Positions 725 to 49,726 of a stretch of DNA of 55,960 nt are shown here, in pieces. A program made the position numbers and the translations under genes. Under the pieces are notes generated by a model that had not been told where the DNA came from, ran no database searches, and saw only the letters and a list, made by a program, of their open reading frames with translations. Numbering within the stretch: the first letter of the stretch is position 1; each line of letters begins with the position of its first letter. Origin of the DNA: Chromatiales bacterium (GTDB taxonomy: Bacteria > Pseudomonadota > Gammaproteobacteria > SpSt-1174); the NCBI GenBank assembly GCA_014762505.1, contig JABURS010000031.1, positions 1-55,960 of the forward strand. Direction: 5' to 3'.

Positions 725-755
725 GATTCCGGTCCTCCCTCGTTCTGTATCCGGC

Positions 756-12975: not shown

Positions 12976-13174
12976 GACAAAGCGCTGTGGGTGGACGAGA
13001 GTTACCCACCCTCAGTCTGCGCGGGGGCGCGCTGTGGCGACCTATAGATTTAAATCTATCCATTGTAAATAAAAGATCGATTGGATTAATGGATAGATCC
13101 TTACCTATGATTCATTCAACTATCAAAAGTTATTAACTGAACTGTCCATTCCAGCAACCGAACAGGAGTTGACC
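12974..13174 (+). promoter_or_regulatory. AT-rich control region of the cbbL carboxysome operon
   Basis: This region is sharply more AT-rich than the flanking genes. It starts with a TTGACA at 12974. A perfect 16-bp palindrome, ATAGATTTAAATCTAT, lies at 13044-13059. An overlapping 11-bp inverted repeat pairs ATCTATCCATT (13054-13064) with AATGGATAGAT (13088-13098). A TNA-N7-TNA motif of the CbbR type lies at 13123-13135. These are good candidates for CbbR/LysR binding and the operon promoter; start site and binding are not shown by sequence alone. Confidence 0.65.
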
Positions 13175-14590
13175 ATGGCTCAAAAAAAGTATGACGCGGG
13201 TGTAAAAGAATACCGCGACATGTATTGGACGCCGGACTACGTTCCGCTCGACACCGACCTCCTGGCCTGCTTCAAGTGCACTGGTCAGCCGGGCGTCCCG
13301 CGCGAGGAAGTCGCCGCTGCTGTGGCCGCTGAGTCCTCCACGGGTACCTGGAGCACCGTGTGGTCCGAACTCCTGACGGACATGGAGTTCTACAAGGGCC
13401 GCGCCTACCGCATCGAAGACGTGCCGGGCGACTCCGAGTCCTTCTATGCCTTCATCGCCTACCCGATCGACCTGTTCGAAGAAGGTTCGGTTGTGAACGT
13501 GCTGACCTCCCTGGTCGGTAACGTGTTCGGCTTCAAGGCCCTCAAGCACCTGCGTCTGGAAGACATCCGCTTCCCGATCGCCTACATCAAGACCTGCGGT
13601 GGCCCGCCGGCCGGTATCACCGTCGAGCGCGACCGTCTGAACAAGTACGGCCGTCCGATGCTGGGTGCCACCATCAAGCCGAAGCTGGGTCTGTCCGCCA
13701 AGAACTACGGCCGTGCCGTGTACGAATGTCTGCGCGGCGGTCTGGACCTGACCAAGGACGACGAAAACGTCAACTCCCAGCCGTTCATGCGCTGGCGCGA
13801 CCGTTTCGAATTCGTCGCCGAGGCCATCCAGAAGGCCGAGGCCGAAACCGGCGAGCGCAAGGGTCACTACCTGAACGTGACCGCTTCCACCCCGGAAGAG
13901 ATGTACAAGCGCGCCGAGTTCGCCAAGGAATGTGGCGTGCCGATCATCATGCACGACTTCCTGACCGGTGGCTTCACCGCCAACACCGGCCTGGCCAACT
14001 GGTGCCGCGACAACGGCATGCTGCTGCACATCCACCGCGCCATGCACGCCGTTATCGACCGTCATCCGAAGCACGGTATCCACTTCCGCGTCCTGGCCAA
14101 GTGCCTGCGTCTGTCCGGTGGTGACCACCTGCATACCGGTACCGTCGTCGGCAAGCTGGAAGGCGACCGCGCCTCCACCCTGGGCTTCGTCGACCAGCTG
14201 CGCGAATCCTTCGTGCCGGAAGACCGCTCCCGCGGTGTGTTCTTCGACCAGGATTGGGGTTCCCTGCCGGGCGTGTTCGCCGTGGCCTCCGGTGGTATCC
14301 ACGTGTGGCACATGCCGGCGCTGGTCACCATCTTCGGTGACGACTCCGTCCTGCAGTTCGGTGGTGGTACCCAGGGTCATCCGTGGGGCAACGCCGCTGG
14401 CGCCGCCGCCAACCGCGTCGCGCTGGAAGCCTGCGTCAAGGCCCGCAACGAAGGCCGTGAGCTCGAGCGCGAAGCGCGCGACATCATGACCGAGGCCGCC
14501 GCGCACAGCCCCGAGCTGGCCATCGCGATGGAAACCTGGAAGGAAATCAAGTTCGAGTTCGAGACCGTCGACAAGCTGGACGTGGCCTAA
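13175..14590 (+). CDS. cbbL: Form IA RuBisCO large subunit
   Basis: This 471-residue protein is the catalytic subunit of ribulose-1,5-bisphosphate carboxylase, which fixes CO2 inside the carboxysome. Visible active-site motifs are [13 protein letters not shown] (Lys175 region), [11 protein letters not shown] with the carbamylated Lys, the loop-6 GKLEGD, and [12 protein letters not shown] near the end. Sequence and context mark the carboxysomal form IA. The start is the ATG at 13175 after AGGAG; the family begins [13 protein letters not shown]. Codon choice is strongly biased to C-ending codons, as in a highly expressed gene. It is first in the operon, with cbbS 55 bases downstream. Confidence 0.98.
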
Positions 14591-14645
14591 GGCCGCGTCC
14601 GCTCCCGGTCCGTAACCGCAACCGAATTCTTACGAGGAATAGAAC

Positions 14646-14987
14646 ATGGCAAACTTTGAAATGGGTGATTACCAGACCGCCCAGACGCTGGAAACCTTCG
14701 GCTTCCTGCCCAAGCTGAACCCGGAAGAGATCCAGGCCCAGATCGCCTACATCATCGCCCAGGGCTGGACCCCGGCCATCGAGCACGAGCATCCGAGCCA
14801 GTCCGGTAACCACTACTGGACCATGTGGAAGCTGCCGTTCTTCGGCCAGACCGACGTCAACTCCGTGCTGGCTGAGCTGGACGCCTGCCGTCGCAAGTAT
14901 CCGGATCACCATGTCCGTCTGCTTGGCTACGACAACTACTCGCAGAGCCAGGGCTCCTGCTTCGTGGTTTACGAAGGTCGCAGCTAA
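14646..14987 (+). CDS. cbbS: Form IA RuBisCO small subunit
   Basis: This 113-residue protein caps the L8S8 enzyme. It shows the form IA pattern: TFGFLPKLNPEEI, the Tyr-Ile-Ile region, EHEHPSQSGNHYWTMWKLP and the C-terminal YDNYSQSQGSCFVVY. Length and position behind cbbL are typical for alpha-carboxysomes. A GAGGAAT ribosome-binding site precedes the ATG. A strong hairpin lies between it and csoS2. Confidence 0.98.
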   Translation: MANFEMGDYQTAQTLETFGFLPKLNPEEIQAQIAYIIAQGWTPAIEHEHPSQSGNHYWTMWKLPFFGQTDVNSVLAELDACRRKYPDHHVRLLGYDNYSQSQGSCFVVYEGRS

Positions 14988-15003
14988 TCGATGAGTGGAT
15001 TCA

Positions 15004-15029
15004 CGGTCGCCCCGTTCTCGGGGCGGCCG
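15004..15029 (+). promoter_or_regulatory. Stem-loop between cbbS and csoS2
   Basis: An 11-bp stem (one G-T wobble) with a TTCT loop lies 17 bases after the cbbS stop, with no T-run following. Known alpha-carboxysome operons carry a stem-loop here that helps keep cbbLS transcripts far above shell-gene transcripts. The same role is inferred here. Confidence 0.65.
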
Positions 15030-15068
15030 CCACGATCAGAAACGAATTTCGACGCGACGGGGTTAACG

Positions 15069-17354
15069 ATGACAGCAAATACCAACAGCAACAGTGCACG
15101 CGAGGCGTCTCTCGCCCGGCGCCGTGCCTTGTCGACCAAGGGCAAGGCTGCGCTTGGCGCTAGCTCCGCCACGGCCGGTCGCAGTACGCCTGCTTCGAGC
15201 GCGACTGCGGCTAGTGGTAGCAGTGCTCCGGTGGCTCGTCCGACGACGACTCCCGGCGGTTCGGCCCGTGCTGCCTCCCGGGCGCGTCGCCAGGCGATGT
15301 CCGTGCGTGGCAAGGCGGGTCTTGGCAACCGCGACCGCGTACGCAATCCCTCGGCCCCCAAGTCCGGTCCGACCCCGACGGCTGCCCCGGCGGCGAAGGG
15401 CGACTGTGGCTGCGGCTGCAAGGGTGAAGGCAAGGATCGCGCCACGGCGCGTGACAGTCAGCCTGCTGTCAGCACGACGAAGCCGCGGTTGAACCCGGCC
15501 GTGCTGAGCAAGGCCCCCAGGAACATCAATCCCACGCGTGCCGCCTCCCTGGCCCGTCGCCAGGCGATGTCCACGCGCGGGAAGGCTGGTATCAGCAAGA
15601 ACGGTATGAGCGCCGCGCAGACCGCGCGTGCTGCCAACCCGAACATGACCAGCCGTGAACTGGCACAGGAGCTGCGCGCGCAGCGCAGCAAGAACGGCAA
15701 GACCGGCCAGCGTCAGCAGAAGAGTGAACCGGTCGGGCGCCGTCGCAGCAAGGCCGGTCAGGCCGGTGCGGCCGCCGATCAGCCCTGGAAGGTGGGTGTC
15801 AGCGAGACCGTGCGCGGTCAGGCCGTCACCGGCACCATGGTCGGTCGCAGCGCGAAGACCACCGGCGACGAGCCGAGCACCTGCCGTGCCGTGACCGGCA
15901 CCGAATACATGGGTGCGGACATCTTCCGCCAGTTCTGCCAGAGCGAACCGGCCAAGACGCCGCGCAAGGTGCGGGTGAGCCCGACCAGTCACGGCAACCG
16001 CGTGACCGGTAACGAAGTGGGTCGCAGCGGCAAGGTGACCGGTGACGAGCCCGGTACCTGCAAGCGCGTGACCGGCTCCGAATACCTGAGCCCGAACCAG
16101 GTCGAGAAGTTCTGCGGCACCAAGCCCGAGGCCGGCCCGAGCAAGATCACGGGCGCCGAGACCCGCAAGGGCAAGGGCGTGACCGGCAACAACGTGGGCC
16201 GTTCCGCGAAGGTGACCGGCGACGAGACCGGTGCGGGTCGCGAACTGACCGGTACCCAGTACATGCAGAAGGGTGACGGCAAGGCCCCGGCCAAGGTCGG
16301 CACCAGCCAGACCCTGCGCGGTGGTGCCGTCACCGGCACCATGGTCGGCCGTGGCAAGAGCGTGACCGGCGACGAGCCGGGCAGCTGCCGCAACATCACC
16401 GGCGACGACTATGTCGGCCAGGAACAGTACAGCGGCTTCTGCGCCAAGACCCCGGCCCCGGCCCCGCAGGATCGCAAGGTGGGTATGTCCCAGACCCTGA
16501 AGGGTCGTCCGGTGAGCGGCACGCTGACCGGTCGTTCCGACAAGGTCACCGGTGACGAGCCCGGCACCTGCAAGGCCATCACCGGCACGCCCTACGCCGG
16601 CGCCGAGCAGTACCGCAGCTACTGCAAGCCGGAAGAGGCGACCATGGCCTCGGCGCGCACCCGCGTGCAGCGTTCCACGCCCGGCCCCGTGATGACCGGT
16701 ATCCAGCCCGGTATCAACGGTCGCCTGACCGGTGCCGGCAGGGGTGCCTGCGAACCGGTGAGCGGCACGCCCTACGTGGGTGCCGACCAGTTCGCCGCCG
16801 CCTGCCCGTCGGTGCCGGCCGAGCCCGGCAGCCCGGACTACCCGCAGCCGCTGGGCGGCACCCCCTGGGGTCAGTTCAGCGTCGAGGCGCCGGTGCATGC
16901 CGCGCAGCCCGAGGCCCGTCGCAGCAGCGTGACCGGCAGCTCCTATGAAAAGGGCACCATCACCGGCCCGTTCGGCATGGCCAGCGGCAAGGTGACCGGT
17001 ACCGAGGAAGCGCGCTTTGGTCGCGGCAACGGCAGCCAGGAGATGGCCGCGCCGATGCCGGAGACGGTGGAAGAGATCGATGGCCGCGTGAAGGGCCGCA
17101 TCACCGGTGAAGGCATGGTGGCCGGTCTGAAGATCACCGGCGACGACTGGGATCGCGGCGACCGCGTGACCGGTACCGAGGGCATGTCCGCCGTGCGTCG
17201 CAATCCGACGCGTCGCGGTGCGCCGGTGGTGAGCGCCATGCAGCCGCCCAAGCGCAACGAAGACGTGCCGGCCCCGGTGAGCAAGGTGACGGGTGGCAGC
17301 GGTAACACCGAGAAGGGTTCGCTGATCACCTATTCCGGCGGCGCCCGCGGCTAA
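15069..17354 (+). CDS. csoS2: Carboxysome assembly scaffold CsoS2
   Basis: This 761-residue disordered protein links RuBisCO to the shell. The N-domain (1-235) has four RuBisCO-binding repeats, at about 9-30, 66-86, 156-176 and 194-213, of the form ARxASxARRxAxSxxGKAG. The middle domain has six repeats from about 240 to 595 with VTG and TGDEPGTC motifs; the third (about 358-408) lacks the paired Cys. The C-domain (596-761) ends in the conserved SLITYSGGARG. A CGCGC cluster at 113-117 sits in the linker between N-repeats 2 and 3. A slippery heptamer A AAG GGC lies at 16949-16955, at the middle/C boundary. The in-frame ATG at 14991 would read through the cbbS-csoS2 hairpin and is less likely. 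Confidence 0.96.
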   Translation: MTANTNSNSAREASLARRRALSTKGKAALGASSATAGRSTPASSATAASGSSAPVARPTTTPGGSARAASRARRQAMSVRGKAGLGNRDRVRNPSAPKSGPTPTAAPAAKGDCGCGCKGEGKDRATARDSQPAVSTTKPRLNPAVLSKAPRNINPTRAASLARRQAMSTRGKAGISKNGMSAAQTARAANPNMTSRELAQELRAQRSKNGKTGQRQQKSEPVGRRRSKAGQAGAAADQPWKVGVSETVRGQAVTGTMVGRSAKTTGDEPSTCRAVTGTEYMGADIFRQFCQSEPAKTPRKVRVSPTSHGNRVTGNEVGRSGKVTGDEPGTCKRVTGSEYLSPNQVEKFCGTKPEAGPSKITGAETRKGKGVTGNNVGRSAKVTGDETGAGRELTGTQYMQKGDGKAPAKVGTSQTLRGGAVTGTMVGRGKSVTGDEPGSCRNITGDDYVGQEQYSGFCAKTPAPAPQDRKVGMSQTLKGRPVSGTLTGRSDKVTGDEPGTCKAITGTPYAGAEQYRSYCKPEEATMASARTRVQRSTPGPVMTGIQPGINGRLTGAGRGACEPVSGTPYVGADQFAAACPSVPAEPGSPDYPQPLGGTPWGQFSVEAPVHAAQPEARRSSVTGSSYEKGTITGPFGMASGKVTGTEEARFGRGNGSQEMAAPMPETVEEIDGRVKGRITGEGMVAGLKITGDDWDRGDRVTGTEGMSAVRRNPTRRGAPVVSAMQPPKRNEDVPAPVSKVTGGSGNTEKGSLITYSGGARG

Positions 17355-17368
17355 GCCGATAGCGCCCG

Positions 17369-18913
17369 ATGCTGAATCGACGTCGCAATCAGTCGCGCAC
17401 GCCGACCCGGCCCGCCGCGCCGATGCGCCGCCCCGGGGCGGTGGGTGGCGGGACGCAGCCGGTGGCCACGGCCACCCCGCGGCCCCCGGCCCCCGGCGCC
17501 GGCCGGCATCCGCTGGTGCGCAGCGACGAGAACGCCCGGCTGTTCGATTACGAGCAGCGTGTGAAGACGTCCTTCGATGCGATCGTGCCCGTGCTCAAGC
17601 GCATCTCGGGATTGCAGCACGAGCAGGACTTCGAGCTGCGCGCACAGCGCATCGCCCGCGACGAGCTCGGTTTCGAGCTGCCGCAGACGATCCTGGCGGA
17701 CGCCTGGGTGGAACAGCTGGACATGCGTCGCCTGTTTGCCTGGTGCGTGTTCGAGACGTACCGGCGCTACTGCGACGACTTTTTCACCGCCGACCCCCTG
17801 CGCTCTACGGGCAGCGGGCCGACGGACGAGGCGGGCTTCGCGGCCTTCCTGCAGGACTGCGGCTTCCATACCCTGGATGTCTCGCCCTGTGCCGATGGCC
17901 GGCTGGCCCACGTGATCCGCTACGTGCTGCGCCTGCCCTATCGCCAGGTGCGTCGCAAGTCCTACGCGGGGGCGATGTTCGACATCGAGGACAGCCTCGA
18001 GAAGTGGATCGAGACCGAGATGCTGCGGTATCGCGAAGGCCGGCCGAACGCCGCCGACGCACCGACGCGCTACCTGAAGGCGGTGGTCTACCACCACAGC
18101 TCGGTGGATCCGCATCACGAGGGCTGCGCCGCGCACGGTTCCGACACCCGGCGTGCGGCCGAGGGTGGACTGGAGAAGCTGCTGGATTTTCAGCAGGCCG
18201 TCGAGAACAGCTTCTGCTGCGGCGCCTCCATCGACCTGCTGCTGATCGGGCTGGACACGGACACGGATGCGATTCGCGTGCACGTGCCGAACGGCCAGGG
18301 TGCAATCGACCTGGAGCGTTATGTCGACACGCAGGCGCTGTACGACGCCACGCGCGGCCTGAGTGCCGCCGAGGCGCAGGCGCGGATCGCCCAGGCAGTG
18401 CAGGAAGTGGCGCCTGACGCGCAGCCGGGCATGGCCCGACTGGTGGGGCAGCTGCTGGAGAACAACCTGTCGCAGGTCGAGTACGTGCGCCGGTTCCACA
18501 ACGGCCACTACAGCGACATCGGGCACGCCGAGCGTTTCATCGGGGCGGGCATCGGGTTCGAGGAAGTGCAGCTGCGCAACCTCACCTACTTCGCCTACCT
18601 GGACACGGTGGAAGAGGCGACGCAGCACCTGGATGTCGGTGTGAAGATCTTTTCGGGACTGAACGTGGCGCATGGCCTGCCCATTCCGGTGGTGGTGCGC
18701 TACGACTATCACGGCCAGGTGCCGGGTGCCCGCGAGCGAGCCATCGAGCATTGCGAGCGTGTCACCAACGCCCTGAGCTCGCGTTACGCAGAACTCGCGG
18801 AACGCGGATTGCTGCACACGCTGCAGGTGGTACGTGACTGTAACGCCGGTGGCAGGATTGAGACGCTGGGCTGTTCCGCCAGCGGTGAGAACAACGCGCA
18901 GGAGGCTCACTGA
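17369..18913 (+). CDS. csoSCA: Carboxysomal carbonic anhydrase
   Basis: This 514-residue enzyme (also called CsoS3, epsilon class) converts bicarbonate to CO2 next to RuBisCO. The catalytic residues are visible: Cys174, Asp176 and Arg178 in PCADGR, His242 in VVYHHSS and Cys253 in HHEGC. The first 50 residues are rich in Arg and Pro and disordered, in keeping with a peptide that tethers the enzyme to RuBisCO. The catalytic domain is followed by a degenerate C-terminal half. It starts 14 bases after csoS2 and its stop overlaps the csoS4A start by one base. Confidence 0.96.
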   Translation: MLNRRRNQSRTPTRPAAPMRRPGAVGGGTQPVATATPRPPAPGAGRHPLVRSDENARLFDYEQRVKTSFDAIVPVLKRISGLQHEQDFELRAQRIARDELGFELPQTILADAWVEQLDMRRLFAWCVFETYRRYCDDFFTADPLRSTGSGPTDEAGFAAFLQDCGFHTLDVSPCADGRLAHVIRYVLRLPYRQVRRKSYAGAMFDIEDSLEKWIETEMLRYREGRPNAADAPTRYLKAVVYHHSSVDPHHEGCAAHGSDTRRAAEGGLEKLLDFQQAVENSFCCGASIDLLLIGLDTDTDAIRVHVPNGQGAIDLERYVDTQALYDATRGLSAAEAQARIAQAVQEVAPDAQPGMARLVGQLLENNLSQVEYVRRFHNGHYSDIGHAERFIGAGIGFEEVQLRNLTYFAYLDTVEEATQHLDVGVKIFSGLNVAHGLPIPVVVRYDYHGQVPGARERAIEHCERVTNALSSRYAELAERGLLHTLQVVRDCNAGGRIETLGCSASGENNAQEAH

Positions 18914-19170
18914 TGAAGATTTGCCAGGTTGAACGCCCGCTGGTGTCAACCAATCGCATCCCGGGCCTGGAGCACAAACACCTCCAGGTGGTGCGTGACG
19001 GCAGTTCCAAGGTGGTGGCGGTCGACGCGGTCGGCTGCATCCCGGGTGACTGGGTCATCTGCGTCGGCAGCTCCGCGGCACGCGAGGCGGCCGGCAGCAA
19101 GGAATACCCGAGCGATCTGACCATCGTCGGGATCATCGACCGCTGGCCCCCGGAAGGGGAGCAGGCCTGA
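18913..19170 (+). CDS. csoS4A: Carboxysome vertex protein CsoS4A
   Basis: This 85-residue protein belongs to the CcmL/EutN family, whose pentamers cap the twelve shell vertices. It starts MKICQVERPLVSTNR and carries the pentamer motifs VDAVGCIPGDWVICVGSSAAR and LTIVGIIDRW. A good AGGAGG site lies inside the end of csoSCA, and the ATG overlaps that stop codon by one base. It overlaps csoS4B in the same way, so the vertex proteins are translationally coupled to the carbonic anhydrase. Confidence 0.96.
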   Translation: MKICQVERPLVSTNRIPGLEHKHLQVVRDGSSKVVAVDAVGCIPGDWVICVGSSAAREAAGSKEYPSDLTIVGIIDRWPPEGEQA

Positions 19171-19421
19171 TGGAGATCCTGCAGGTCGAGATGCCGCTGG
19201 TGTGCACCCGTCGCATCGACGGACTGAAGCAGACCAGCCTGCGTGTCCTGCGGGATGGGAATGGCAAGCGCCAGGTGGCGGTCGACCCGGTGGGTGCCCG
19301 TGAAGGCAACTGGGTGTTCACCGTCAGCGGTTCGGCCGCGCGCTATGCCGCCGGTGACTTCGAGGTGCTGACCGATCTGACGATCGGCGGGATCATCGAT
19401 CACTGGGAAGCCGACGCCTGA
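19170..19421 (+). CDS. csoS4B: Carboxysome vertex protein CsoS4B
   Basis: This 83-residue second CcmL/EutN-type pentamer protein begins MEILQVEMPLVCTRR and shows VDPVGAREGNWVFTVSGSAAR and LTIGGIIDHW. It aligns along its whole length with CsoS4A but differs at many positions, so the pair is an old duplication. Its ATG overlaps the csoS4A stop by one base. A 63-base gap follows before csoS1. Confidence 0.96.
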   Translation: MEILQVEMPLVCTRRIDGLKQTSLRVLRDGNGKRQVAVDPVGAREGNWVFTVSGSAARYAAGDFEVLTDLTIGGIIDHWEADA

Positions 19422-19484
19422 CGCGGCCGGCTGGATTGGACAACGGTTTAGAAATCAACAAACGAGTCAGCAGGAGACATTGAG

Positions 19485-19775
19485 ATGGCAGACGAAAACT
19501 ACGGCATCGCACTGGGCATGATCGAAACGCGCGGGCTGGTGCCCGCCATCGAGGCGGCCGACGCCATGACCAAGGCCGCTGAAGTCCGCCTCATCGGGCG
19601 TGAATTCGTGGGCGGCGGTTATGTCACCGTGCTGGTCCGCGGCGAAACGGGTGCGGTCAACGCCGCCGTTCGCGCCGGTGCAGATGCCTGTGAACGTGTT
19701 GGTGACGGCCTGGTCGCCGCCCACATTATTGCTCGCCCGCATCGCGAGGTTGAGCCGGTTCTCAGCAAGAAGTAA
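19485..19775 (+). CDS. csoS1: Carboxysome shell hexamer CsoS1, copy 1
   Basis: This 96-residue BMC-domain protein forms hexamers that tile the shell facets; the pore motif is FVGGGY in REFVGGGYVTVLV. The protein from YGIALG to VEPVL is identical to the two following copies; only residues 2-4 and the short tail (SKK) differ. I leave the A/B/C suffix open because the copies cannot be told apart by their core. It has a strong AGGAG site. Confidence 0.97.
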   Translation: MADENYGIALGMIETRGLVPAIEAADAMTKAAEVRLIGREFVGGGYVTVLVRGETGAVNAAVRAGADACERVGDGLVAAHIIARPHREVEPVLSKK

Positions 19776-19818
19776 GGCTAACTGAAAGACTTTTATTTCC
19801 GACGACGGAGACACGACG

Positions 19819-20124
19819 ATGGCAAGCGAAAACTACGGTATTGCTCTGGGTATGATCGAAACCCGCGGTCTGGTGCCCGCGATCGAAGCGGCTGACGCCA
19901 TGACCAAGGCGGCTGAAGTGCGCCTGATCGGCCGCGAATTTGTGGGTGGTGGTTACGTGACCGTGCTGGTCCGTGGCGAAACCGGCGCCGTTAACGCCGC
20001 GGTTCGCGCCGGTGCCGACGCCTGCGAACGCGTGGGTGACGGTCTGGTTGCTGCCCACATCATTGCTCGCCCGCACCGCGAAGTTGAGCCGGTTCTTCCG
20101 GCTGGCGGCCCGGCTGTTGAGTAA
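19819..20124 (+). CDS. csoS1: Carboxysome shell hexamer CsoS1, copy 2
   Basis: This 101-residue BMC-domain protein has the same FVGGGY pore and the same core sequence as copies 1 and 3. Its tail reads PAGGPAVE after VEPVL. Its DNA differs from copy 1 at many third codon positions, so the identity is kept at protein level. It lies 43 bases after copy 1 in the same transcript. Confidence 0.97.
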   Translation: MASENYGIALGMIETRGLVPAIEAADAMTKAAEVRLIGREFVGGGYVTVLVRGETGAVNAAVRAGADACERVGDGLVAAHIIARPHREVEPVLPAGGPAVE

Positions 20125-20166
20125 CGAGCGCTTCAACACGAAATCCATTTGACAGGAGTTTCAACA

Positions 20167-20478
20167 ATGGCCAACGACAATTATGGTATCGCGCTCGGCA
20201 TGATCGAGACCCGTGGTCTGGTTCCGGCTATCGAAGCCGCTGACGCCATGACCAAGGCCGCCGAAGTGCGCCTGATCGGCCGCGAGTTCGTCGGCGGTGG
20301 CTACGTGACCGTGCTGGTCCGTGGCGAAACCGGCGCCGTGAACGCTGCCGTTCGTGCCGGTGCCGATGCCTGCGAACGCGTGGGTGACGGTCTGGTTGCT
20401 GCTCACATCATTGCCCGCCCGCATCGCGAAGTGGAGCCTGTGCTCTCTTCCACGGGCAATGGTCCGGCGCGCAGCTAA
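20167..20478 (+). CDS. csoS1: Carboxysome shell hexamer CsoS1, copy 3
   Basis: This 103-residue BMC-domain protein is the last of the three. It starts MANDNYGIALG and has the longest tail, SSTGNGPARS. The core is identical in protein to copies 1 and 2. I chose the ATG at 20167 over an in-frame ATG at 20149 because the family starts at this point and a GACAGGAG site precedes it. A GC-rich hairpin follows the stop. Confidence 0.97.
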   Translation: MANDNYGIALGMIETRGLVPAIEAADAMTKAAEVRLIGREFVGGGYVTVLVRGETGAVNAAVRAGADACERVGDGLVAAHIIARPHREVEPVLSSTGNGPARS

Positions 20479-21030: not shown

Positions 21031-21303
21031 ATGGCCGCAACGGAATGGCAGGAACGTAATCGCCCGGTTCGACTGGAAAAACGCTACGAGTTTCCGGATT
21101 ACGGCACGTTACGGGATTTTCTCGATCGTGCAGCCGAACTCTCCGAACGTGTGGGACTGTTCCCCGACATGGGCTTTGGTCGAGACTATGTGAATGTCAC
21201 CATTCACCTCGACGAAGGTGCCGAGGAGATCAGCCCGGAACAACGCGAATTCGCCGAGCAGCTCGACGCGCTGTCTACGGCGGACAACGAACTCAATAAC
21301 TGA
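21031..21303 (+). CDS. acRAF: Alpha-carboxysome RuBisCO assembly factor acRAF
   Basis: This 90-residue protein is a pterin-4a-carbinolamine dehydratase-like fold that acts as a form IA RuBisCO chaperone. It shows RLEKRYEFPDYGTLRDFLDRAAELSE and DYVNVTIHL, but lacks the full catalytic histidine motif of true dehydratases as far as I can see. The ATG at 21031 is chosen; a TTG two codons earlier gives no conserved sequence. It sits between the ferritin-like gene and mcdA as in other cso operons. Confidence 0.9.
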   Translation: MAATEWQERNRPVRLEKRYEFPDYGTLRDFLDRAAELSERVGLFPDMGFGRDYVNVTIHLDEGAEEISPEQREFAEQLDALSTADNELNN

Positions 21304-21313
21304 GGATACCGCC

Positions 21314-21940
21314 ATGCCCGTCATCGCTGTGGTGGGCAACAAGGGTGGTGCGGGTAAGACAACGCTGGCGGTGAATCTCGCCGCGGCATTGGCTCGTCGC
21401 GCATCCACCGTGGTGCTCGATGCCGATCCGCAGGGTTCTGCCCTTCAGTGGCGTGCCTTTGCCGACGGCCGTGCTGCCGTGGATGTCCTGTGTGCCACGG
21501 CGGGTATCGAGTCCCTGGTGCGCAACGCAGCATCGCGTCATTCCCACGTCATCATTGATTGCCCCCCTTCCGTACATTCCCCGCAAATGAATGCGGCACT
21601 GCGTATCGCGGATCTTGCCCTGATCCCGGTGCAGCCATCGCCGGTCGACCTGTGGGCCACGGTCCATGTCGAGGAGGCCGTCGCGCGGGCGCGCGAGTCG
21701 AATCCCGAACTGGACGCCCTGGTCGTCATCAATCAGCTGGAGGCACGCACCGTGCTGTCCCGACTGATGCGTGATGCGGTGTCCGAACTGGCGCTGCCGG
21801 TGGCGGATACGGCCATCCGGCGCCGTGCGGTGTTCCGCACCAGTGCGCTGGAAGGCAAGAGCGTGATGGACATGGGCAAGCGGGGCGAGGAAGCCGTCGC
21901 GGAACTCGACCAACTGATCAACGAGGTACTCAAGTCATGA
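21314..21940 (+). CDS. mcdA: Carboxysome positioning ATPase McdA (ParA type)
   Basis: This 208-residue ParA/MinD-family ATPase starts MPVIAVVGNKGGAGKTTLAV, a deviant Walker A with the signature Lys. VVLDADPQGSALQW and IIDCPPSV are the switch and Walker B regions. McdA coats the nucleoid and is released by McdB, which spaces carboxysomes along the cell. It is 10 bases after acRAF and overlaps mcdB by four bases (ATGA), so the pair is translationally coupled. Confidence 0.93.
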   Translation: MPVIAVVGNKGGAGKTTLAVNLAAALARRASTVVLDADPQGSALQWRAFADGRAAVDVLCATAGIESLVRNAASRHSHVIIDCPPSVHSPQMNAALRIADLALIPVQPSPVDLWATVHVEEAVARARESNPELDALVVINQLEARTVLSRLMRDAVSELALPVADTAIRRRAVFRTSALEGKSVMDMGKRGEEAVAELDQLINEVLKS

Positions 21941-22200
21941 GCGATACCGAAAAGACCCGACAGAAGCTGATGGACACCATTCGCCGCACCAAGGCGGGCG
22001 CCACCGGCGCGCCGGAAGAGGCCCCGCAGGCGGCCGCCGCGGCGGAAAAGCCGGCGCCTGCCGCCAGGCCCAAGACGGCGAAACCGAAGGCCAAGCCGAG
22101 CCCGAAGCCGGCTGCCAGCAAGAGCACCCCGGCGAAAAAGTCTGCGGGCGGCAGCCAGGGCGATGCCTATCAGAGCGGTCGCCGCGTCTGGCCGGACTGA
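21937..22200 (+). CDS. mcdB: Carboxysome positioning adaptor McdB
   Basis: This 87-residue disordered protein is rich in Ala, Lys and Pro. It has a charged N-terminal helix (TEKTRQKLMDTIRRTK) that would contact McdA and a C-terminal YQSGRRVWPD with the invariant Trp expected of alpha-McdB. It associates with carboxysomes and stimulates the McdA ATPase. It overlaps mcdA by four bases and ends the carboxysome operon. Confidence 0.9.
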   Translation: MSDTEKTRQKLMDTIRRTKAGATGAPEEAPQAAAAAEKPAPAARPKTAKPKAKPSPKPAASKSTPAKKSAGGSQGDAYQSGRRVWPD

Positions 22201-22320: not shown

Positions 22321-23325
22321 ATGTCCGCCCTCAGTAACCTGCTCATACCTGCGGTCCTGTTCTTCGCCCTGGGTTTTCTGGCCCGGGTCATCAAGTCGGA
22401 CCTGCGCCTGCCGCAGGACCTGGCGAAGATGCTCTCGATCTACCTGCTGGTGGCCATCGGGCTGCATGGCGGGTACGAGCTGGGCCAGTCGGATCTCGGG
22501 GCGGCATTCAATGCCGTACTGTGGGCGGTGATCCTGGGTTTCGGATTGCCGCTCATCGGTTACGCCCTTCTCCTGTTCACCCGTCGTGTCGACCGGATGA
22601 ATGCTGCGGCGATTGCAGCGCACTACGGTTCGGTGAGCGCCGGTACCTTTCTTACCGCCATCGCCTACCTGGACAGTGCCGGCATCACGTACGAGAGCTA
22701 TCCGGTCATCATGCTGGCGGTGATGGAGTCGCCCGCCATCATCGTCGGCCTGTTGCTGGCCTCCTGGTCGCGACGCCAGCTCGTCGATGCGGGCGATGCC
22801 GACCCGGCGAACGGCAATGGCAGCGGCCGGCGGCAGTGGAAGACGCTGGCGCACGAGGCGCTGACCAATGGCAGCGTGGTGCTGCTGCTCGGTTCGATGG
22901 TGATCGGCGCTGTTTCGCGACCGGGCTCCATGGAAAAGCTCTCGCCGTTCATCGACGAGATCTTCATGGGGGTGCTCTGCCTGTTCCTGTTCGAGATGGG
23001 CATGGAGGCGGCGCGCCGCATACGCGAGTTTCGCAAGGTGGGCCCGGTGCTGATCGGCTTCGGCCTGATCATGCCGCTCATCGGTGGCGCCATCGGTATT
23101 GCGGTGGGTCACCTGGCGCTGGATCTGAGCATCGGCGGGACCACGCTGGTCGGTGTGCTCGGCGCGAGTGCCTCCTATATCGCGGTACCGCCGGCCATGC
23201 GCCTGGCCGTGCCCGAGGCGAATCCATCCTATTATCTAACGCTCGCACTCGGTATTACCTTTCCGTTTAATGTCGTCATCGGTATTCCTCTCTATCACCA
23301 ATTGGCCATCATAGTGGGTGCCTGA
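22321..23325 (+). CDS. sbtA: Sodium-dependent bicarbonate transporter SbtA
   Basis: This 334-residue inner-membrane protein has about ten helices in two inverted halves, as in SbtA. Diagnostic stretches are RLPQDLAKMLSIYLLVAIGLHGG near the start, HYGSVSAGTFLTA and VMESPAIIVGLLL in the middle, and LGASASYIAVPPAMRLAVPEANPS near the end. It imports bicarbonate with sodium at high affinity. A GGAGG site precedes the ATG. It is followed after 17 bases by its PII-like regulator, and the pair stands next to the carboxysome operon it feeds. Confidence 0.95.
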   Translation: MSALSNLLIPAVLFFALGFLARVIKSDLRLPQDLAKMLSIYLLVAIGLHGGYELGQSDLGAAFNAVLWAVILGFGLPLIGYALLLFTRRVDRMNAAAIAAHYGSVSAGTFLTAIAYLDSAGITYESYPVIMLAVMESPAIIVGLLLASWSRRQLVDAGDADPANGNGSGRRQWKTLAHEALTNGSVVLLLGSMVIGAVSRPGSMEKLSPFIDEIFMGVLCLFLFEMGMEAARRIREFRKVGPVLIGFGLIMPLIGGAIGIAVGHLALDLSIGGTTLVGVLGASASYIAVPPAMRLAVPEANPSYYLTLALGITFPFNVVIGIPLYHQLAIIVGA

Positions 23326-23342
23326 TACAGGACATAGATGCC

Positions 23343-23663
23343 ATGCACGAGCTTTCGTCCGAGAAATTGATCACGATCATTACGACCGATGTTCTTGAAG
23401 ACCGTCTGATCACAATCGTCAAGGCGCATGGGGCAAGCGGCTATACGATTCAGCGGGCTCGTGGTGGTGGTTCGAGCGGAGAGCAAAGCGGGATGCTGGA
23501 TGTGGATACGAATATCACCTTCCACGTCGTGTTGCCGCCTGATAGGCTCTCGGGAGTACTTGCAGACTTGCATCGATTGATTCGGAAACATTATCACCTG
23601 ACGGTTTGGGTGTCCGATGTTTCGGTGCTGCGACCAGAGAAGTTTTCTGACCCACTTGCCTGA
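23343..23663 (+). CDS. sbtB: PII-like regulator SbtB
   Basis: This 106-residue protein is a PII-superfamily ferredoxin-like fold. It contains LITIITTDVLEDRLITIVKAHGASGYTI, a T-loop rich in Gly and Ser (ARGGGSSGEQSG) and the beta-strand pair ITFHVVLPPDRL. SbtB trimers bind adenine nucleotides including cAMP and block SbtA from the cytoplasmic side. I see no Cys pair of the redox-sensing C-terminal loop present in some cyanobacterial SbtB. Its DNA is visibly less GC-rich than the cso operon. Confidence 0.88.
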   Translation: MHELSSEKLITIITTDVLEDRLITIVKAHGASGYTIQRARGGGSSGEQSGMLDVDTNITFHVVLPPDRLSGVLADLHRLIRKHYHLTVWVSDVSVLRPEKFSDPLA

Positions 23664-23696
23664 CCCGGTTATTACTCGTGTAGAGGCCTATAATTG

Positions 23697-25811
23697 ATGC
23701 GGCGACTAAGCTCAAGGCTGTTCCCGTTTGTTGGTTGGTTTCCTGTCACGGCGGGTGGTTTGCGTGCAGATCTGATGGCGGGACTCGCCGTTGCGCTAGT
23801 GCTTATACCCCAGTCCATGGCATATGCGCAGCTTGCGCAGTTGCCGCCCATCTATGGCCTGTACGCAGCCTTTCTGCCGGTTATGGTTGCTGCGCTATGG
23901 GGCTCGTCAAGCCAGTTGGCCACCGGGCCAGTTGCTGTCGTATCGTTGCTTACGGGGACTGCGCTATTACCCTTTGCGGCAGCAGGCTCACCAGAGTTCA
24001 TAGCGTTGGCTATTGCACTTGCAGCGCTTATCGGGGTGATTCAGCTGCTGCTCGGGCTCTTGCGCATGGGTGTGCTCGTCAGCTTCATTTCTCATCCGGT
24101 GGTGATTGGGTTCACGAATGCTGCGGCGCTTATCATCGCGCTCTCACAGCTTAATAAGCTGCTAGGCCTTCAGCGCGATACCGAAAGTGCTTTCCTGGTG
24201 GGTATCTGGGACATGCTGTTGAGGATCGGTGACTCACATGTTCCTACTGTGATGATGGGCGTGGGTGCAATAGCCCTGATGTGGTTGCTGAAGAAGTATC
24301 TCCCGAGGGCTCCGGGTGTTCTCATTGCCGTTGTGCTGTCCATCCTGATCAGCTGGTTGGCTGGTTTTGAACGCAAGACAAGCGTGTCAATGGATGCGAT
24401 CGCAACTGAAGAAGTTCGCGCCTTGATCGAGGAGAAGCACGCTGTAAAGCTGGCTGCCGAGACGCGCGAAGAGGTAGTGCGTGATATCGATGAGCGACTT
24501 GTCGATATCACTGATGGTGAGGCGCTGATGCTGCAGCATCAGCGTAACGTCGCTGCCCATGAGGCCGAGGAGTTGCGGGAGAAAGCCAGGCTGATCGCTT
24601 CAGAGATACGCAGGATTGGCTTGCAACAGGCTGCCGGAGGTGTGGGTGTCTTCTACGCCGTCGATGTATCGCCGACAGATGTGGAGCTTGACAAGGGCAT
24701 ATGGCGATTCGTCGGTACCTCTGAGAACGAGGTGACGCTGAGCAGTGGCGGGGCTGTTGTCGGTACGGTTCCCAGGGGTTTGCCTGATCTCGCCTGGCCA
24801 AGCCTTGACTGGCAGGTGGTTACGTCGTTGATCACGTCGGCCTTCATTATTGCAATGGTCGGGTTCACTGAGGCGATTGCCATTGCCAAGGCGATGGCGG
24901 CGAAAACCGGTCAGCGCATCGACCCGAATCAGGAGTTGATAGGGCAGGGACTGGCGAATATGGTCGGCAGTATCAGTCAGGCTTATCCGGTGAGTGGTTC
25001 GTTCTCGCGTTCGGCTGTCAACCTGAGCAATGGTGCGCGCACGGGACTTTCGTCTGTGTTTACCGCGCTGATTGTGCTCGTGACATTGCTCTTCCTGACA
25101 TCTCTGCTTTATCACCTTCCCCAGGCAGTGCTTGCGGCCATCATCATGATGGCGGTCTCGGGCCTGGTGAATGTCAAGGCAGTCAAGCATGCCTGGCAGG
25201 CAAGTCGACACGACGGGCTGGCCGCCATCGTGACCTTCGTTGTCACTCTGGTGCTTGCGCCCAATCTCGAATTCGGGATTCTCGCCGGCGTAGGCCTTGC
25301 CGTGGCGCTGTATCTTTATCGAACGATGCGGCCTCGTGTAGCCGAGCTTGCGCGCTACCAGGATGGCACCTTGCGTGATGCCAGGCTGTATGGGCTGGCG
25401 CCATTCAAGAGTGCCTGCATCATTCGTTTCGACGGCGGACTGTTCTTTGCCAATGTTCCCTATTTCGAAGATGCTGTGCTGAATGCCGTTGCGCGCAATC
25501 CCGAGGCCAAGTATGTCGTGATCGTCGGCAAGGGAATCAATGAGGTCGACGCGTCCGGCGAGGAGGTTATACGTCATCTCGTACGGCGCCTGCGCGAACG
25601 GGATGTCACGTTGGTATTTGCCGGCATCAAGGCGCAGGTGCTCGATGTGATGCAGCGTACCGGTCTTTACGAGGAGATTGGCGAGAAGTACGTTTTTCGC
25701 TCGACCCAGGGTGCACTGGATGCCGTGGCGGAATGGACGGGCGACGACTCCTTGCGAGACGCAAAGTCGGAGAAATCCGGCAGTGGACACCCAGTCGCAG
25801 ATCCTGCCTGA
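23697..25811 (+). CDS. SulP/SLC26 anion transporter with coiled-coil insertion, probable bicarbonate carrier
   Basis: This 704-residue inner-membrane protein has the SulP membrane part (about 10-225 and 365-550; IPQSMAYAQLAQLPPIYGLYAAF, GFTNAAALIIALSQL, PVSGSFSRSA) and a C-terminal STAS domain (about 570-690, VVIVGKGINEVDASGEE). Residues about 226-350 (24372-24747) are an insertion where the family has a short loop: a charged helical segment, then GIWRFVG and VTLSSGGAVVGTVPRGLP. In the standard 14-helix topology this loop faces the periplasm. The neighbouring sbtAB, cso operon and cbbR make bicarbonate the likeliest substrate; sulfate is the alternative. Base composition is lower in GC than the cso genes. 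A TTG one codon upstream is an alternative start. Confidence 0.88.
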   Translation: MRRLSSRLFPFVGWFPVTAGGLRADLMAGLAVALVLIPQSMAYAQLAQLPPIYGLYAAFLPVMVAALWGSSSQLATGPVAVVSLLTGTALLPFAAAGSPEFIALAIALAALIGVIQLLLGLLRMGVLVSFISHPVVIGFTNAAALIIALSQLNKLLGLQRDTESAFLVGIWDMLLRIGDSHVPTVMMGVGAIALMWLLKKYLPRAPGVLIAVVLSILISWLAGFERKTSVSMDAIATEEVRALIEEKHAVKLAAETREEVVRDIDERLVDITDGEALMLQHQRNVAAHEAEELREKARLIASEIRRIGLQQAAGGVGVFYAVDVSPTDVELDKGIWRFVGTSENEVTLSSGGAVVGTVPRGLPDLAWPSLDWQVVTSLITSAFIIAMVGFTEAIAIAKAMAAKTGQRIDPNQELIGQGLANMVGSISQAYPVSGSFSRSAVNLSNGARTGLSSVFTALIVLVTLLFLTSLLYHLPQAVLAAIIMMAVSGLVNVKAVKHAWQASRHDGLAAIVTFVVTLVLAPNLEFGILAGVGLAVALYLYRTMRPRVAELARYQDGTLRDARLYGLAPFKSACIIRFDGGLFFANVPYFEDAVLNAVARNPEAKYVVIVGKGINEVDASGEEVIRHLVRRLRERDVTLVFAGIKAQVLDVMQRTGLYEEIGEKYVFRSTQGALDAVAEWTGDDSLRDAKSEKSGSGHPVADPA

Positions 25812-26121
25812 GGGTTGGGGTGGAGAGCGGGTCGTGACGCATGTGGCGAATCGCCGCACCACGAGCCTGCTGCCATGGGTTCTCGTCCTGAGAACGAGGC
25901 AAGAATTATACATTTATAATGGTCTATAGTTTATTTAAAAAATATCAATTAGAATAAATCACTTGTTGTGGCCATACTCCGGTGTCCTGAAGGTTTACCC
26001 AATGACGCGACTGGTAAATTGCCCGGCACTGGGCCGCTGCCTGATTCACAGCGATATGCCGTGTCGCGGCGTCGTCGACTCTCGACTGACAACGACAGTC
26101 TGAAAGACCCGGAGTAACCCG
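25812..26121 (+). promoter_or_regulatory. 310-base leader and AT-rich promoter of the second SulP gene
   Basis: No gene is visible here. A small hairpin (GTTCTC / GAGAAC, 25879-25895) may slow read-through from the first SulP gene. An AT-rich block at 25905-25965 follows, with CATTTATAAT at 25911-25920 (shared with the sbtA promoter), CTATAG at 25924-25929 and a TNA-N7-TNA motif at 25945-25957. The remaining ~150 bases to the start suggest a long untranslated leader. Confidence 0.5.
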
Positions 26122-28227
26122 ATGCACTCGCTTCTTTACACGCTGTTCCCTTTCCTGCGCTGGTTCCCCATGAATTCGGCCGGAATACGTGCCGATTTCC
26201 TCGCTGGTCTCACTGTGGCATTGGTACTTGTTCCGCAAAGCATGGCCTATGCACAGCTTGCCGGATTGCCAGTGGTATACGGCCTGTATGCCTCCTTTAT
26301 CCCCGTCATCGTCGCATCGCTGTGGGGGTCGTCCAGTCAGCTGCATACGGGTCCGGTGGCAATGCTGTCCCTGATGTCAGCAGCAGCACTTATCCCATTC
26401 GCAAGTCCAGAGAGCCCCAGTTTCATCGAGTTGTCGGTAATGCTGGCATTGATGGTTGGTGTGCTGCGTCTGGCGCTGGGTGTGTTCCGCCTTGGGGCGA
26501 TCGTCAATCTGCTGTCGAGCCCCGTGATCGTGGGTTTCACGAATGCTGCAGCGCTCATTATCGGTTTGTCGCAGCTGAGTAAGGTTCTCGGTGTGCCATT
26601 TCCTCGCACGGATAATTACCTGGCTGACCTGTGGCGTGTTCTCGAACAGATTCCAGAGTTGCATTGGCCGACCCTGATATTCGGTGTGGGTGCATGGTTG
26701 GTGATATCTCTGATGCGCCGCGTAATGCCCTCTCTCCCAGGCGTACTCGTTGCCGTTGTGCTGGCCACTCTGGTGAGTGCGGTGGTCGGCTACGAGAACA
26801 AGAAGACGGTGTCTCTGGAACAGATTGAGGACCCGGTCATTGCTGAGGCGATAGATGCCTTCGGCAAGGTGCACATGCGTATCGGTGAGCTCACAAACGA
26901 GATTGCTGAGGTCAACCGTTATGCTGAAGAACTGAAGAAGCGTGGCAACGAGAAGGATTTCGCTGAGGCTGCCATGCTGGAGGCCAGTGCGGCGGTTTAT
27001 TCGCAAAAGCTGGATAAGCTGAAATCGGAGAATACAGTGCGCCGCGTTGAACTGCATGCAATGCGGTTGACGCAGATCGCAGGTGATGACGGGGTGTCAC
27101 GTTTCGTACCCGTCGCTGCTGTGGAGTCGACCGAGGGAGGTGTATGGCGTTTCCATGGTGTCGACAAAGATGGTGTCGTACTCTCATCGGGTGGTGCCGT
27201 TGTGGGCAATATTCCGGAAGGGTTGCCGAGTTTCGAAGTGCCTACTATCCAGTGGGAGCTCGTGATTGCGTTGCTGCCCGCCGCGCTGGTCATGGCACTG
27301 ATCGGTTTCATGGAGGCAACCTCCATTTCCAAGGCCATCGCCACCAACACGGGTGAGCGAGTGGACACCAGCAAGGAGCTGGTGGGACAGGGTCTGGCGA
27401 ACATCGCCGGCAGCTTCTTCGGCTCCTATACCGTTAGCGGCTCCTTCTCGCGCTCGGCCGTGGCTGCGCGTACGGGTGCGAAAACCGGTTTGTTCGCCAT
27501 CATCAGTGCATTGGCCGTGATGCTGGTGCTGCTGTTCTTCACCGAGTATCTGTATCACCTGCCGCAGGCGGTGCTGGCGGTGATCGTGATGATGGCGGTG
27601 TTCAGCCTGATCCGTATCTCGCCGCTGGTGAACGCCTGGAAGTTCGATCGCATCGGCGCACTCATCGGCGTCATCACCTTTGTTGCCACCCTGTTAATGG
27701 CGCCATCGATTGCCAACGGAATCCTGCTTGGCGTGGCTCTGACCGTGCTTTACCACCTGGTGCGGATCATGAAGCCGCGTACCGAGATCGTCGGTCGCAA
27801 GGATGATGGCACCCTGGGCGGGATGCTCACGCATGGGCTCGAGCCGATCAGCGAGAACTTCGTACCGGTTCGTTTCGATGGCTCGCTCACCTTCATCAAC
27901 GTGGCCTATTTCGAAGATGTGATCCTCGAGGCGCATAGCGATTTCCCGGATGCCAAGGCGATCCTCGTGATCGGCAGCAGCATCAACGAGATCGATGCCT
28001 CCGGTGAGGAGAAGGTACGCGAGGTGGCACAGCGCCTGCGCGAGGTGGGTGTGAAACTTGCCTTCAGCGGTCTCAAGCACCAGGTCATGCGAGTGATGGA
28101 GCGCAGTGGGCTGGTCAAAGAGCTGGGGGCAGATGCCTTCTATCCCGACAAGCAAAGTGCACTCGATGCAATGATCAAGCAATACGGTGCCGGCCCCGCG
28201 CCGGCGCGCAGCCCTGCCGCCGGCTAA
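26122..28227 (+). CDS. Second SulP/SLC26 anion transporter with the same type of insertion
   Basis: This 701-residue protein is collinear with the first SulP (VPQSMAYAQLAGLPVVYGLYASF, GFTNAAALIIGLSQL, YTVSGSFSRSA) and ends in a STAS domain (about 570-685, ILVIGSSINEIDASGEE). The insertion at about residues 226-357 begins at the same residue number as in its neighbour. Its coiled-coil half differs greatly in sequence, but it ends in a like motif, GVWRFHG and VVLSSGGAVVGNIPEGLP. The first two thirds of the gene look more AT-rich than the last third. It has its own promoter region and lies upstream of cbbR, so a DIC role is likely but not proven. Confidence 0.88.
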   Translation: MHSLLYTLFPFLRWFPMNSAGIRADFLAGLTVALVLVPQSMAYAQLAGLPVVYGLYASFIPVIVASLWGSSSQLHTGPVAMLSLMSAAALIPFASPESPSFIELSVMLALMVGVLRLALGVFRLGAIVNLLSSPVIVGFTNAAALIIGLSQLSKVLGVPFPRTDNYLADLWRVLEQIPELHWPTLIFGVGAWLVISLMRRVMPSLPGVLVAVVLATLVSAVVGYENKKTVSLEQIEDPVIAEAIDAFGKVHMRIGELTNEIAEVNRYAEELKKRGNEKDFAEAAMLEASAAVYSQKLDKLKSENTVRRVELHAMRLTQIAGDDGVSRFVPVAAVESTEGGVWRFHGVDKDGVVLSSGGAVVGNIPEGLPSFEVPTIQWELVIALLPAALVMALIGFMEATSISKAIATNTGERVDTSKELVGQGLANIAGSFFGSYTVSGSFSRSAVAARTGAKTGLFAIISALAVMLVLLFFTEYLYHLPQAVLAVIVMMAVFSLIRISPLVNAWKFDRIGALIGVITFVATLLMAPSIANGILLGVALTVLYHLVRIMKPRTEIVGRKDDGTLGGMLTHGLEPISENFVPVRFDGSLTFINVAYFEDVILEAHSDFPDAKAILVIGSSINEIDASGEEKVREVAQRLREVGVKLAFSGLKHQVMRVMERSGLVKELGADAFYPDKQSALDAMIKQYGAGPAPARSPAAG

Positions 28228-28281
28228 GGCCGGGGCGGGCGACTGCCCAGGCAACCGGCGATGGCCAGGAAGGGGGAATAC

Positions 28282-29349
28282 ATGGGGGACGAGTCGTCCA
28301 GCCGCTCCAGACAGGGCTATCTGCCTGCCGTGGCCATGCCCGAGCACCTGATCCGGCATGCCACCCTGCGCCAGCTGCAGGTCTTCGAGGCGATTGTCCG
28401 CCTCGGCAGTTTCACGCGCGCGGCCGAGGAGCTGTTCCTGACCCAGCCCACGGTGTCCATGCAGATCAAGAAGCTCACGGATGCCGTGGGTCTGCCGCTG
28501 TTCGAGCATGTGGGGCGCAACGTGCAGCCCACCGAGGCCGGGCGCGAGCTGTACGATGCCGGCCGGCGCATGTTCGAGACCCTGGCCAACCTCGAGATGA
28601 AGATGGCCGATCTGCAGGGCATGAAGCGTGGTCGCCTGCGCCTGGGGGTTATCACCACGGCGCAGTATTTTGCGCCGGAGATCCTCGGTGAGTTCAGTGC
28701 GCTCTACCCGGGTATCGAAGTCGCCCTGAAGGTATCCAACCGCGACAGCATCATCGAACGCCTGCAGGGCAACGAGGACGACCTCTACATCATGGGCCAG
28801 GCCCCCGAGGGCGAGGTCGAGGTGGAGGCCTTTCCCTTCGCGCCCAACCCGCTGGTCGTGATCGCCCCGCGCAACCACCCGCTGGTCGGCGAGCGTGACA
28901 TCCCCCTGTCCCGTCTGGCGGAAGAGCCCTTCATCCTGCGCGAACCCGGTTCCGGTATCCGCGATGCCATCACGCGCTACTTCGACGCCGAAGGCGTGCG
29001 GCCCAAGGTGCGCATGGAACTCGGCAGTAACGAGGCCATCAAGCACGCGGTGGTCGGCGGGCTCGGGCTGTCGGTGCTGTCCCTGCACACGCTGGCGCTG
29101 GAGGGCACCAGCGGTCCCGTGGCGATTCTCGACATCGAGGGTTTCCCGATCCTGCGGCGCTGGTACCTGGTGTATCCGAAGGGCAAGGAGCTCTCGCTAC
29201 TGGCCAGCACCTTCCTCGAGTTTGCCAAGGAGAGCGAGACCAAGATCCGCGAACGCCTGTTCCGTATCTGGCCGCCGCTCAAGGAGTACGACCTCGACAA
29301 GGTCGAGCCCGCCACGCGGGTGAAGAAAAAGGCGGCGAGAAAGGGCTAG
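28282..29349 (+). CDS. cbbR: LysR-type regulator of CO2 fixation genes, CbbR type
   Basis: This protein of about 355 residues has a winged-helix DNA-binding domain (about 20-80, TLRQLQVFEAIVRLGSFTRAAEE) and a periplasmic-binding-like effector domain with the CbbR-like stretches TTAQYFAPEILGEFSALYPG and LQGNEDDLYIMGQ. CbbR proteins activate cbb genes in response to metabolites at TNA-N7-TNA sites. I prefer the ATG at 28282 with AAGGGGG before it; ATGs at 28261 and 28336 are alternatives, the last giving the usual short N-terminus. It has a Lys/Arg-rich C-terminal tail. It converges with cbbQ, 7 bases apart. Confidence 0.9.
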   Translation: MGDESSSRSRQGYLPAVAMPEHLIRHATLRQLQVFEAIVRLGSFTRAAEELFLTQPTVSMQIKKLTDAVGLPLFEHVGRNVQPTEAGRELYDAGRRMFETLANLEMKMADLQGMKRGRLRLGVITTAQYFAPEILGEFSALYPGIEVALKVSNRDSIIERLQGNEDDLYIMGQAPEGEVEVEAFPFAPNPLVVIAPRNHPLVGERDIPLSRLAEEPFILREPGSGIRDAITRYFDAEGVRPKVRMELGSNEAIKHAVVGGLGLSVLSLHTLALEGTSGPVAILDIEGFPILRRWYLVYPKGKELSLLASTFLEFAKESETKIRERLFRIWPPLKEYDLDKVEPATRVKKKAARKG

Positions 29350-47931: not shown

Positions 47932-47933
47932 GC

Positions 47934-49568: not shown

Positions 49569-49726
49569 GTTCACCTCCGTCTTGCCGGCGGTGTCACGCG
49601 TGAGGCCTGCCGCCAGCGGTGGGTTTCTCGATGGCAGACAGTCTAGGGAAAGGCTGACAATAACGATAATGAATAGTTATCATAGTGACTATAGCAAAAA
49701 GGCTATAGTGATTACGGAGGAGTCCC
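49569..49726. promoter_or_regulatory. Divergent control region between dabBA and a LysR gene
   Basis: An AT-rich core at 49655-49715 has two symmetric elements. A LysR-type TNA-N7-TNA site lies at 49667-49679 (TAA-TGAATAG-TTA, within GATAA/TTATC symmetry). An 8-bp perfect inverted repeat, ACTATAGC and GCTATAGT, spans 49688-49709 with a 6-base spacer. They lie just upstream of the LysR start at 49727 and could serve autoregulation and dab activation. Confidence 0.65.

Follow-up and report, generated by a model that had tools for sequence, protein, structure and literature searches.

A coiled-coil and beta insert between TM7 and TM8 defines a clade of SulP transporters, with two members beside an alpha-carboxysome cluster

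Two adjacent genes of a Chromatiales bacterium, here called SulP_A and SulP_B, encode proteins of a single SulP/SLC26 clade that are presumably anion transporters of the dimeric elevator type, and the insert which both carry between transmembrane helices TM7 and TM8 is a real, unnamed domain that defines this clade. By analogy with a SulP from the literature whose gene has an equivalent position in its genome, and from the gene neighbours, the most likely substrate of both proteins is bicarbonate. We give about even odds (a probability of roughly 0.5) to the joint reading in which SulP_A and SulP_B are bicarbonate suppliers to the carboxysome and the insert is a periplasmic bracing or docking module.

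The SulP pair, its locus and its insert

The window, i.e., the whole stretch of 55,960 nucleotides that was analysed, shows the gene order cso - ParA - sbtA - PII-like - SulP_A - SulP_B - CbbR-like. Both SulP genes lie on the same (+) strand, SulP_A being followed by SulP_B after a gap of 310 bases in which a promoter scan found none. The features considered here are the following:

13169..20478, + strand: alpha-carboxysome cluster with cbbL, csoS2, csoSCA, csoS4A/B and three csoS1 genes (RuBisCO match; EutN_CcmL for csoS4A; others by sequence)
22321..23325, + strand: SbtA-type bicarbonate transporter, directly upstream (PF05982, 7e-117)
23343..23663, + strand: PII-like protein at the SbtB position, ending 33 bases before SulP_A (PF00543, 6.8e-15)
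23697..25811, + strand: SulP_A, SulP/SLC26 transporter with TM7-TM8 insert and STAS domain, 704 aa (PF00916, 1e-104; TIGR00815 above cut-off; model fold); a TTG at 23694 is an alternative start
24366..24752, + strand: SulP_A insert, residues 224-352, between TM7 and TM8 (alignment with insertion-less relatives, profile matches)
24369..24389, + strand: insert strand 1, residues 225-231 (AlphaFold2)
24408..24500, + strand: insert helix 1, residues 238-268, first arm of the coiled-coil hairpin (AlphaFold2; hydrophobic period 3.45)
24516..24614, + strand: insert helix 2, residues 274-306, second arm (AlphaFold2; hydrophobic period 3.5)
24618..24749, + strand: insert strands 2-5, residues 308-351, with a conserved Trp-Arg (AlphaFold2; W 30/32, R 29/32)
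25410..25703, + strand: SulP_A STAS domain, residues 572-669 (PF01740, 2.7e-16)
26122..28227, + strand: SulP_B, second SulP/SLC26 transporter with homologous insert, 701 aa, carboxysome-linked subclade (PF00916, 3.5e-103; tree)
26791..27195, + strand: SulP_B insert, residues 224-358 (alignment; profile match 6e-40, the SulP_B insert itself being among the profile rows)
27850..28158, + strand: SulP_B STAS domain, residues 577-679 (PF01740, 8.4e-9)
28261..29349, + strand: LysR-type regulator, CbbR-like, 33 bases past SulP_B (PF00126/PF03466; best NCBIfam model CbbR at 4e-79, below its cut-off)

Both proteins matched PF00916 (350.8 bits for SulP_A and 345.7 for SulP_B; cut-off 23.2) and passed the cut-off of 380 bits of the general SulP model TIGR00815 (433 and 399 bits, respectively). 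The PF00916 match of each was broken in two at profile positions ~219/216, and chains of known structure aligned to SulP_A as two pieces flanking that gap. Insertion-less relatives, up to ~60% identical, have 5-8 residues at this place, compared with 128 in SulP_A and 134 in SulP_B. The split profile matches and the alignments confirmed the claim of an earlier note on this DNA that both proteins contain an insertion of ~125-130 residues at the same position. Among the SulP matches listed from 60 Pseudomonadota genomes, only SulP_A, SulP_B and two proteins with the same insert were split at the TM7-TM8 place; few SulP proteins overall have the insert. With an insert profile, dozens of other genomes yielded full-length copies, almost all of which lay within open reading frames of SulP length, and the insert is therefore not a product of chance. 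In nearly all copies its length was 124-139 residues, across deeply diverged SulPs. Partial matches at the phylum level with E values of 1e-4 to 1e-3 were excluded as generic coiled coils, and the profile found no match in plasmids. Pfam yielded no family covering the 32 inserts compared, but scattered weak matches, mostly to coiled coils, and nothing relevant was found in the open-access literature on a periplasmic insert or a heterodimer in SulP proteins.

With regard to the end motifs that the same note had described as shared, both were present in SulP_A and SulP_B (GIWRFVG and GVWRFHG for the first; VTLSSGGAVVGTVPRGLP and VVLSSGGAVVGNIPEGLP for the second), but only the first belongs to the insert. 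The pattern GG-x-VVG-x-(I/V)P-x-G(L/V)P also occurs in insertion-less relatives (GGRVVGTIPEGVP, GGKVVGEIPQGLP) and is thus part of the SulP core; the insert proper ends with WRF-x-G and the next strand.

Several further features of the locus were recorded. The GC content of both SulP genes (23700-28200) is ~0.56-0.59, compared with 0.60-0.67 in most flanking genes. At 21194-22200, a ParA-like gene and, after it, the gene of an 87-residue protein rich in Ala, Lys and Pro and without Pfam match are possibly a McdAB-like carboxysome-positioning pair. Two tandem ferritin-like genes lie at 257-1220 (-), and another is found in the carboxysome cluster (20530-21018). A DabA/DabB-type inorganic-carbon complex (PF10070; Mrp-like subunit) is encoded at 45376-49574 (-), with its own LysR-type regulator at 49727-50641 (+); with SbtA, SulP and DAB, carbon uptake genes of three kinds are therefore present in the window.

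Predicted fold and sequence character of the insert

AlphaFold2 was run on the whole of SulP_A (20 aligned sequences, mean pLDDT 81.6) and on the insert alone (13 sequences, mean pLDDT 87.9). The order in the former model was seven TM helices, insert, seven TM helices and STAS domain, and its membrane part had the 7+7 TM inverted-repeat fold, VIA-align giving Z values of 52.8 with prestin, 51.4 with SULTR4;1 and 48 with the BicA TM domain. The 7+7 TM core, the STAS domain and Z values of about 48-53 are common ground with the SulP/SLC26 proteins SULTR4;1, prestin and SLC26Dg, from which SulP_A and SulP_B differ by an additional stretch of about 125-130 residues in the TM7-TM8 loop. SulP proteins have a 7+7 TM topology with a cytosolic N-terminus. 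Since seven TM helices precede the insert after that N-terminus, it would face the periplasm, and the predicted helix count on both sides, with the STAS domain at the end, agrees with the earlier proposal of such an orientation.

The insert, predicted with confidence in both models, was modelled alone as a strand, two helices (31 and 33 residues) forming an antiparallel hairpin, and four strands, so that the coiled-coil plus beta composition anticipated from the sequence was reproduced by the models. A profile search of PDB sequences with the insert returned coiled coils only, Foldseek gave nothing at E ≤ 0.001, and no solved structure resembling the insert beyond its coiled coil was found by these comparisons. 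Membrane fusion proteins of the AcrA/HlyD type, which have a periplasmic coiled-coil hairpin rising from a beta region as predicted for the insert, were among the top Foldseek rows, yet with E values of 0.2 or worse and probabilities of up to 0.28, and the insert seems to be without their lipoyl domain or barrel pair. The VIA-align rows for the insert (seryl-tRNA synthetase arm and others, Z up to 10.8) were discarded, because they covered mainly the hairpin and were no better than expected for long helices.

Cysteine was absent from all 32 inserts and no Asp, Glu or His position was invariant across them. The conserved points lie near the insert end (Trp 30/32, Arg 29/32, Gly-Gly 32/32); apart from the one Arg beside a Trp, no polar residue was strongly conserved, and the net charge averaged about -3. 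The lack of cysteine and of any conserved catalytic residue, together with the net negative charge, speaks against capture or catalysis, and these features seem more in keeping with a module that serves structure or binding than with an enzyme or anion trap. The modelled fold and the absence of catalytic or metal-binding residues suggest an interaction role.

Ancestry, distribution and gene neighbourhoods

In a tree built without the insert columns, the insert-bearing SulPs formed one strongly supported clade, which also holds a few insert-less members. Three changes of the insert are needed on this tree, most parsimoniously one gain and two losses; the tree was repeated by a quicker method with magnetosome-bearing lineages added. 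The insert was thus probably gained once and lost at least twice, and these losses would make it dispensable for the core fold. SulP_A grouped with its counterparts in genomes G223 and G019 and less tightly with those of Thiobacillus, and SulP_B with carboxysome-linked SulPs. A recent tandem duplication was ruled out by the tree, which places SulP_A and SulP_B in separate old subclades, so the pair was assembled from these two. In a genome of the same genus (G241), SbtA, SbtB, SulP_B and CbbR stand in a row with no SulP_A at the locus. The B-type SulP of another genome (G151; L071, 9039-11122) has a stop codon in the insert region and is either a pseudogene or a sequencing error.

In the class sample, the insert was found in 29 of 369 genomes, as a single copy in 25 of the 29. 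Strong RuBisCO matches were present in 26/29 carriers versus 149/340 other genomes (p 9e-7) and SoxB in 27/29 versus 123/340 (p 1e-9), these p values being computed over carriers from about 25 families that are not independent genomes. The insert occurred in 3 of the 29 genomes with SoxB only, in 2 of the 54 with RuBisCO only, and in none of the 165 with neither; in line with this last count, it is not widespread in SulP proteins of heterotrophs in this sample. Within RuBisCO-positive genomes the effect of SoxB remained (p 0.005), while within SoxB-positive genomes RuBisCO had none (p 0.29). The phylum-wide sample added 16 genomes with a full-length insert, 13 of them without RuBisCO. All 13 have magnetochrome (magnetosome cytochrome) domains, and are therefore regarded as magnetosome-bearing and taken to be Magnetococcia-like. 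dsrA was above its cut-off in all 13 and in G359, a near-complete class genome with the insert and without RuBisCO; soxB was found in just one of the 13. Taking autotrophy as the presence of RuBisCO, these 13 genomes and G359 leave the earlier description of the module as specific to autotrophs unsupported. In a tally within carriers, 43 of 45 had SoxB or DsrA, the exceptions being G357 and the incomplete G241, with neither above cut-off. It is fair to say that the insert tracks dissimilatory sulfur metabolism as closely as it tracks RuBisCO or more so, and equally that carboxysome linkage is confined to part of the insert clade.

Genes of the B subclade adjoin carboxysome genes in 9 of 15 loci, with a further locus (L068) cut by the contig end. 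Outside the window, carboxysome adjacency in the class sample was found only on the B side of the tree and for no A-type or other member. A sigma-54 response regulator is encoded near the SulP gene in 11 Thiobacillus-type loci, in all four loci of one carboxysome-side subclade, in L119 and in six magnetosome-bearing genomes (L009-L017, L019, L020; L065, L067, L076, L081; L119, L122, L124, L125, L128, L131, L133). These regulators are about 50-58% identical between lineages, as against 32-35% for other regulators from the same loci. Some of them lie together with a HAMP histidine kinase, namely those of the four subclade loci, of the six magnetosome-bearing genomes and of L011 and L119. TauE-type (sulfite-exporter) genes are near the SulP gene in five loci, a molybdopterin oxidoreductase is near it in L118, and a hexapeptide-repeat protein resembling gamma carbonic anhydrase is encoded in several Thiobacillus-type loci. 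Two unusual fusions were also seen: a TauE-type exporter fused to universal-stress-protein domains, beside insert-bearing and insert-less SulPs (L018, 3965-5917; L053, 10969-12924), and a cytidylate-kinase-like domain fused to a response regulator receiver, beside the SulPs of two deep-branching members (L077, 11209-12465; L079, 9136-10410).

Substrate and role of the insert

To our knowledge, the bicarbonate-carrying SulPs of chemolithoautotrophs have mostly been guessed from phylogeny. The cyanobacterial Na+/bicarbonate SulP BicA shares the TM fold of SulP_A (2.6 Å rmsd over 380 residues) and likely also its role at this locus; it differs in sequence (21% identity) and is without the insert, and SulP_A and SulP_B score 124.4 and 130.8 bits against the BicA equivalog model, whose cut-off is 880. 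At the TM8 and TM10 positions that we take, from the BicA structure paper, to form the Na+/bicarbonate site, the residues are replaced, in TM8 Asp by Glu392 and Thr by Ile396, and in TM10 Ala-Thr by Ser435-Phe436 and Gly by Arg438. The latter is of the SLC26/SULTR type and invariant in the clade, and the Ser-Phe-Ser-Arg motif of TM10 is common to SulP_A, SULTR4;1 and prestin. The substrate site is not BicA-like, which leaves room for sulfate or for an exchanger, and the best reading of the anion is bicarbonate and/or sulfate. In Thiomicrospira pelophila, the carboxysome-adjacent SulP-CS increases the inorganic carbon inside the cell when assayed, and it rescues carbonic-anhydrase-less Escherichia coli (PMC12628692). 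It resembles the present genes by position, its gene adjoining a carboxysome locus with sbtA.

In the preferred reading, SulP_A and SulP_B would bring bicarbonate into the cytoplasm, where it would feed the carboxysome. The insert would be a non-catalytic periplasmic protein-protein module, with a small beta platform where TM7 and TM8 meet that supports a long antiparallel coiled-coil hairpin, and may either brace the homodimer or dock a periplasmic partner. Against this reading count the substrate-site residues, the position of most non-B members away from carboxysome genes, the losses of the insert and the 13 carriers without RuBisCO.

Those 13 carriers, all with dsrA, count in favour of a less probable alternative, in which the clade exports sulfate from sulfur oxidation, some lineages doing so in exchange for bicarbonate, and the insert would have its role in this transport. 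The tracking of SoxB by the insert, with an effect within RuBisCO-positive genomes that RuBisCO does not have within SoxB-positive ones, the TauE-type genes and the molybdopterin oxidoreductase near SulP, and the invariant TM10 Arg all favour it; however, a correlation with markers does not give the substrate, the window copies sit with SbtA, the PII-like protein, the carboxysome and the CbbR-like gene, and the carboxysome-adjacent SulP studied elsewhere accumulates inorganic carbon (PMC12628692). Nothing relevant on sulfate export by SulP proteins in sulfur oxidisers was found in the open-access literature. A broader scheme, in which the clade in sulfur-oxidising proteobacteria exchanges waste sulfate for bicarbonate, the once-gained insert organises periplasmic or sensory partners and one subclade was recruited to carboxysomes, is considered unlikely.

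Transporter-kinase pairs offer a precedent for a sensor-coupling role, in which the insert would inform a partner histidine kinase of the transport state or of the anion level in the periplasm. The related sigma-54 regulators near SulP in distant lineages, some with a kinase, point in this direction, but no such kinase adjoins SulP_A or SulP_B in the window, nor most B-type genes, and we regard this role as doubtful. Less probable still is an A-B heterodimerisation module, which the earlier note had entertained: SulP_A and SulP_B are adjacent and both carry the insert, and in each of two further genomes (G043 and G184) a pair of insert-bearing SulPs lies within a few kb, but these pairs are convergent and mix other subclades, SulP_A and SulP_B themselves come from separate old subclades, and G241 has SulP_B alone at this locus. 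Since a single copy is the rule among carriers, heterodimerisation is unlikely to be the main role of the insert. The capture of bicarbonate by the insert, also raised in that note, is in keeping with its predicted periplasmic side, but a fold dominated by a coiled coil, the mean net charge of -3 and a conservation limited to Trp-Arg and Gly-Gly, with no pocket-like polar residues, argue weakly against it and make it a very improbable function.

A domain of single origin clearly marks one SulP clade. As the domain is linked to sulfur metabolism rather than to RuBisCO, it may be asked whether these proteins carry sulfate, bicarbonate or both; if true, sulfate-bicarbonate exchange by the clade would couple the two ends of the sulfur-oxidiser lifestyle.
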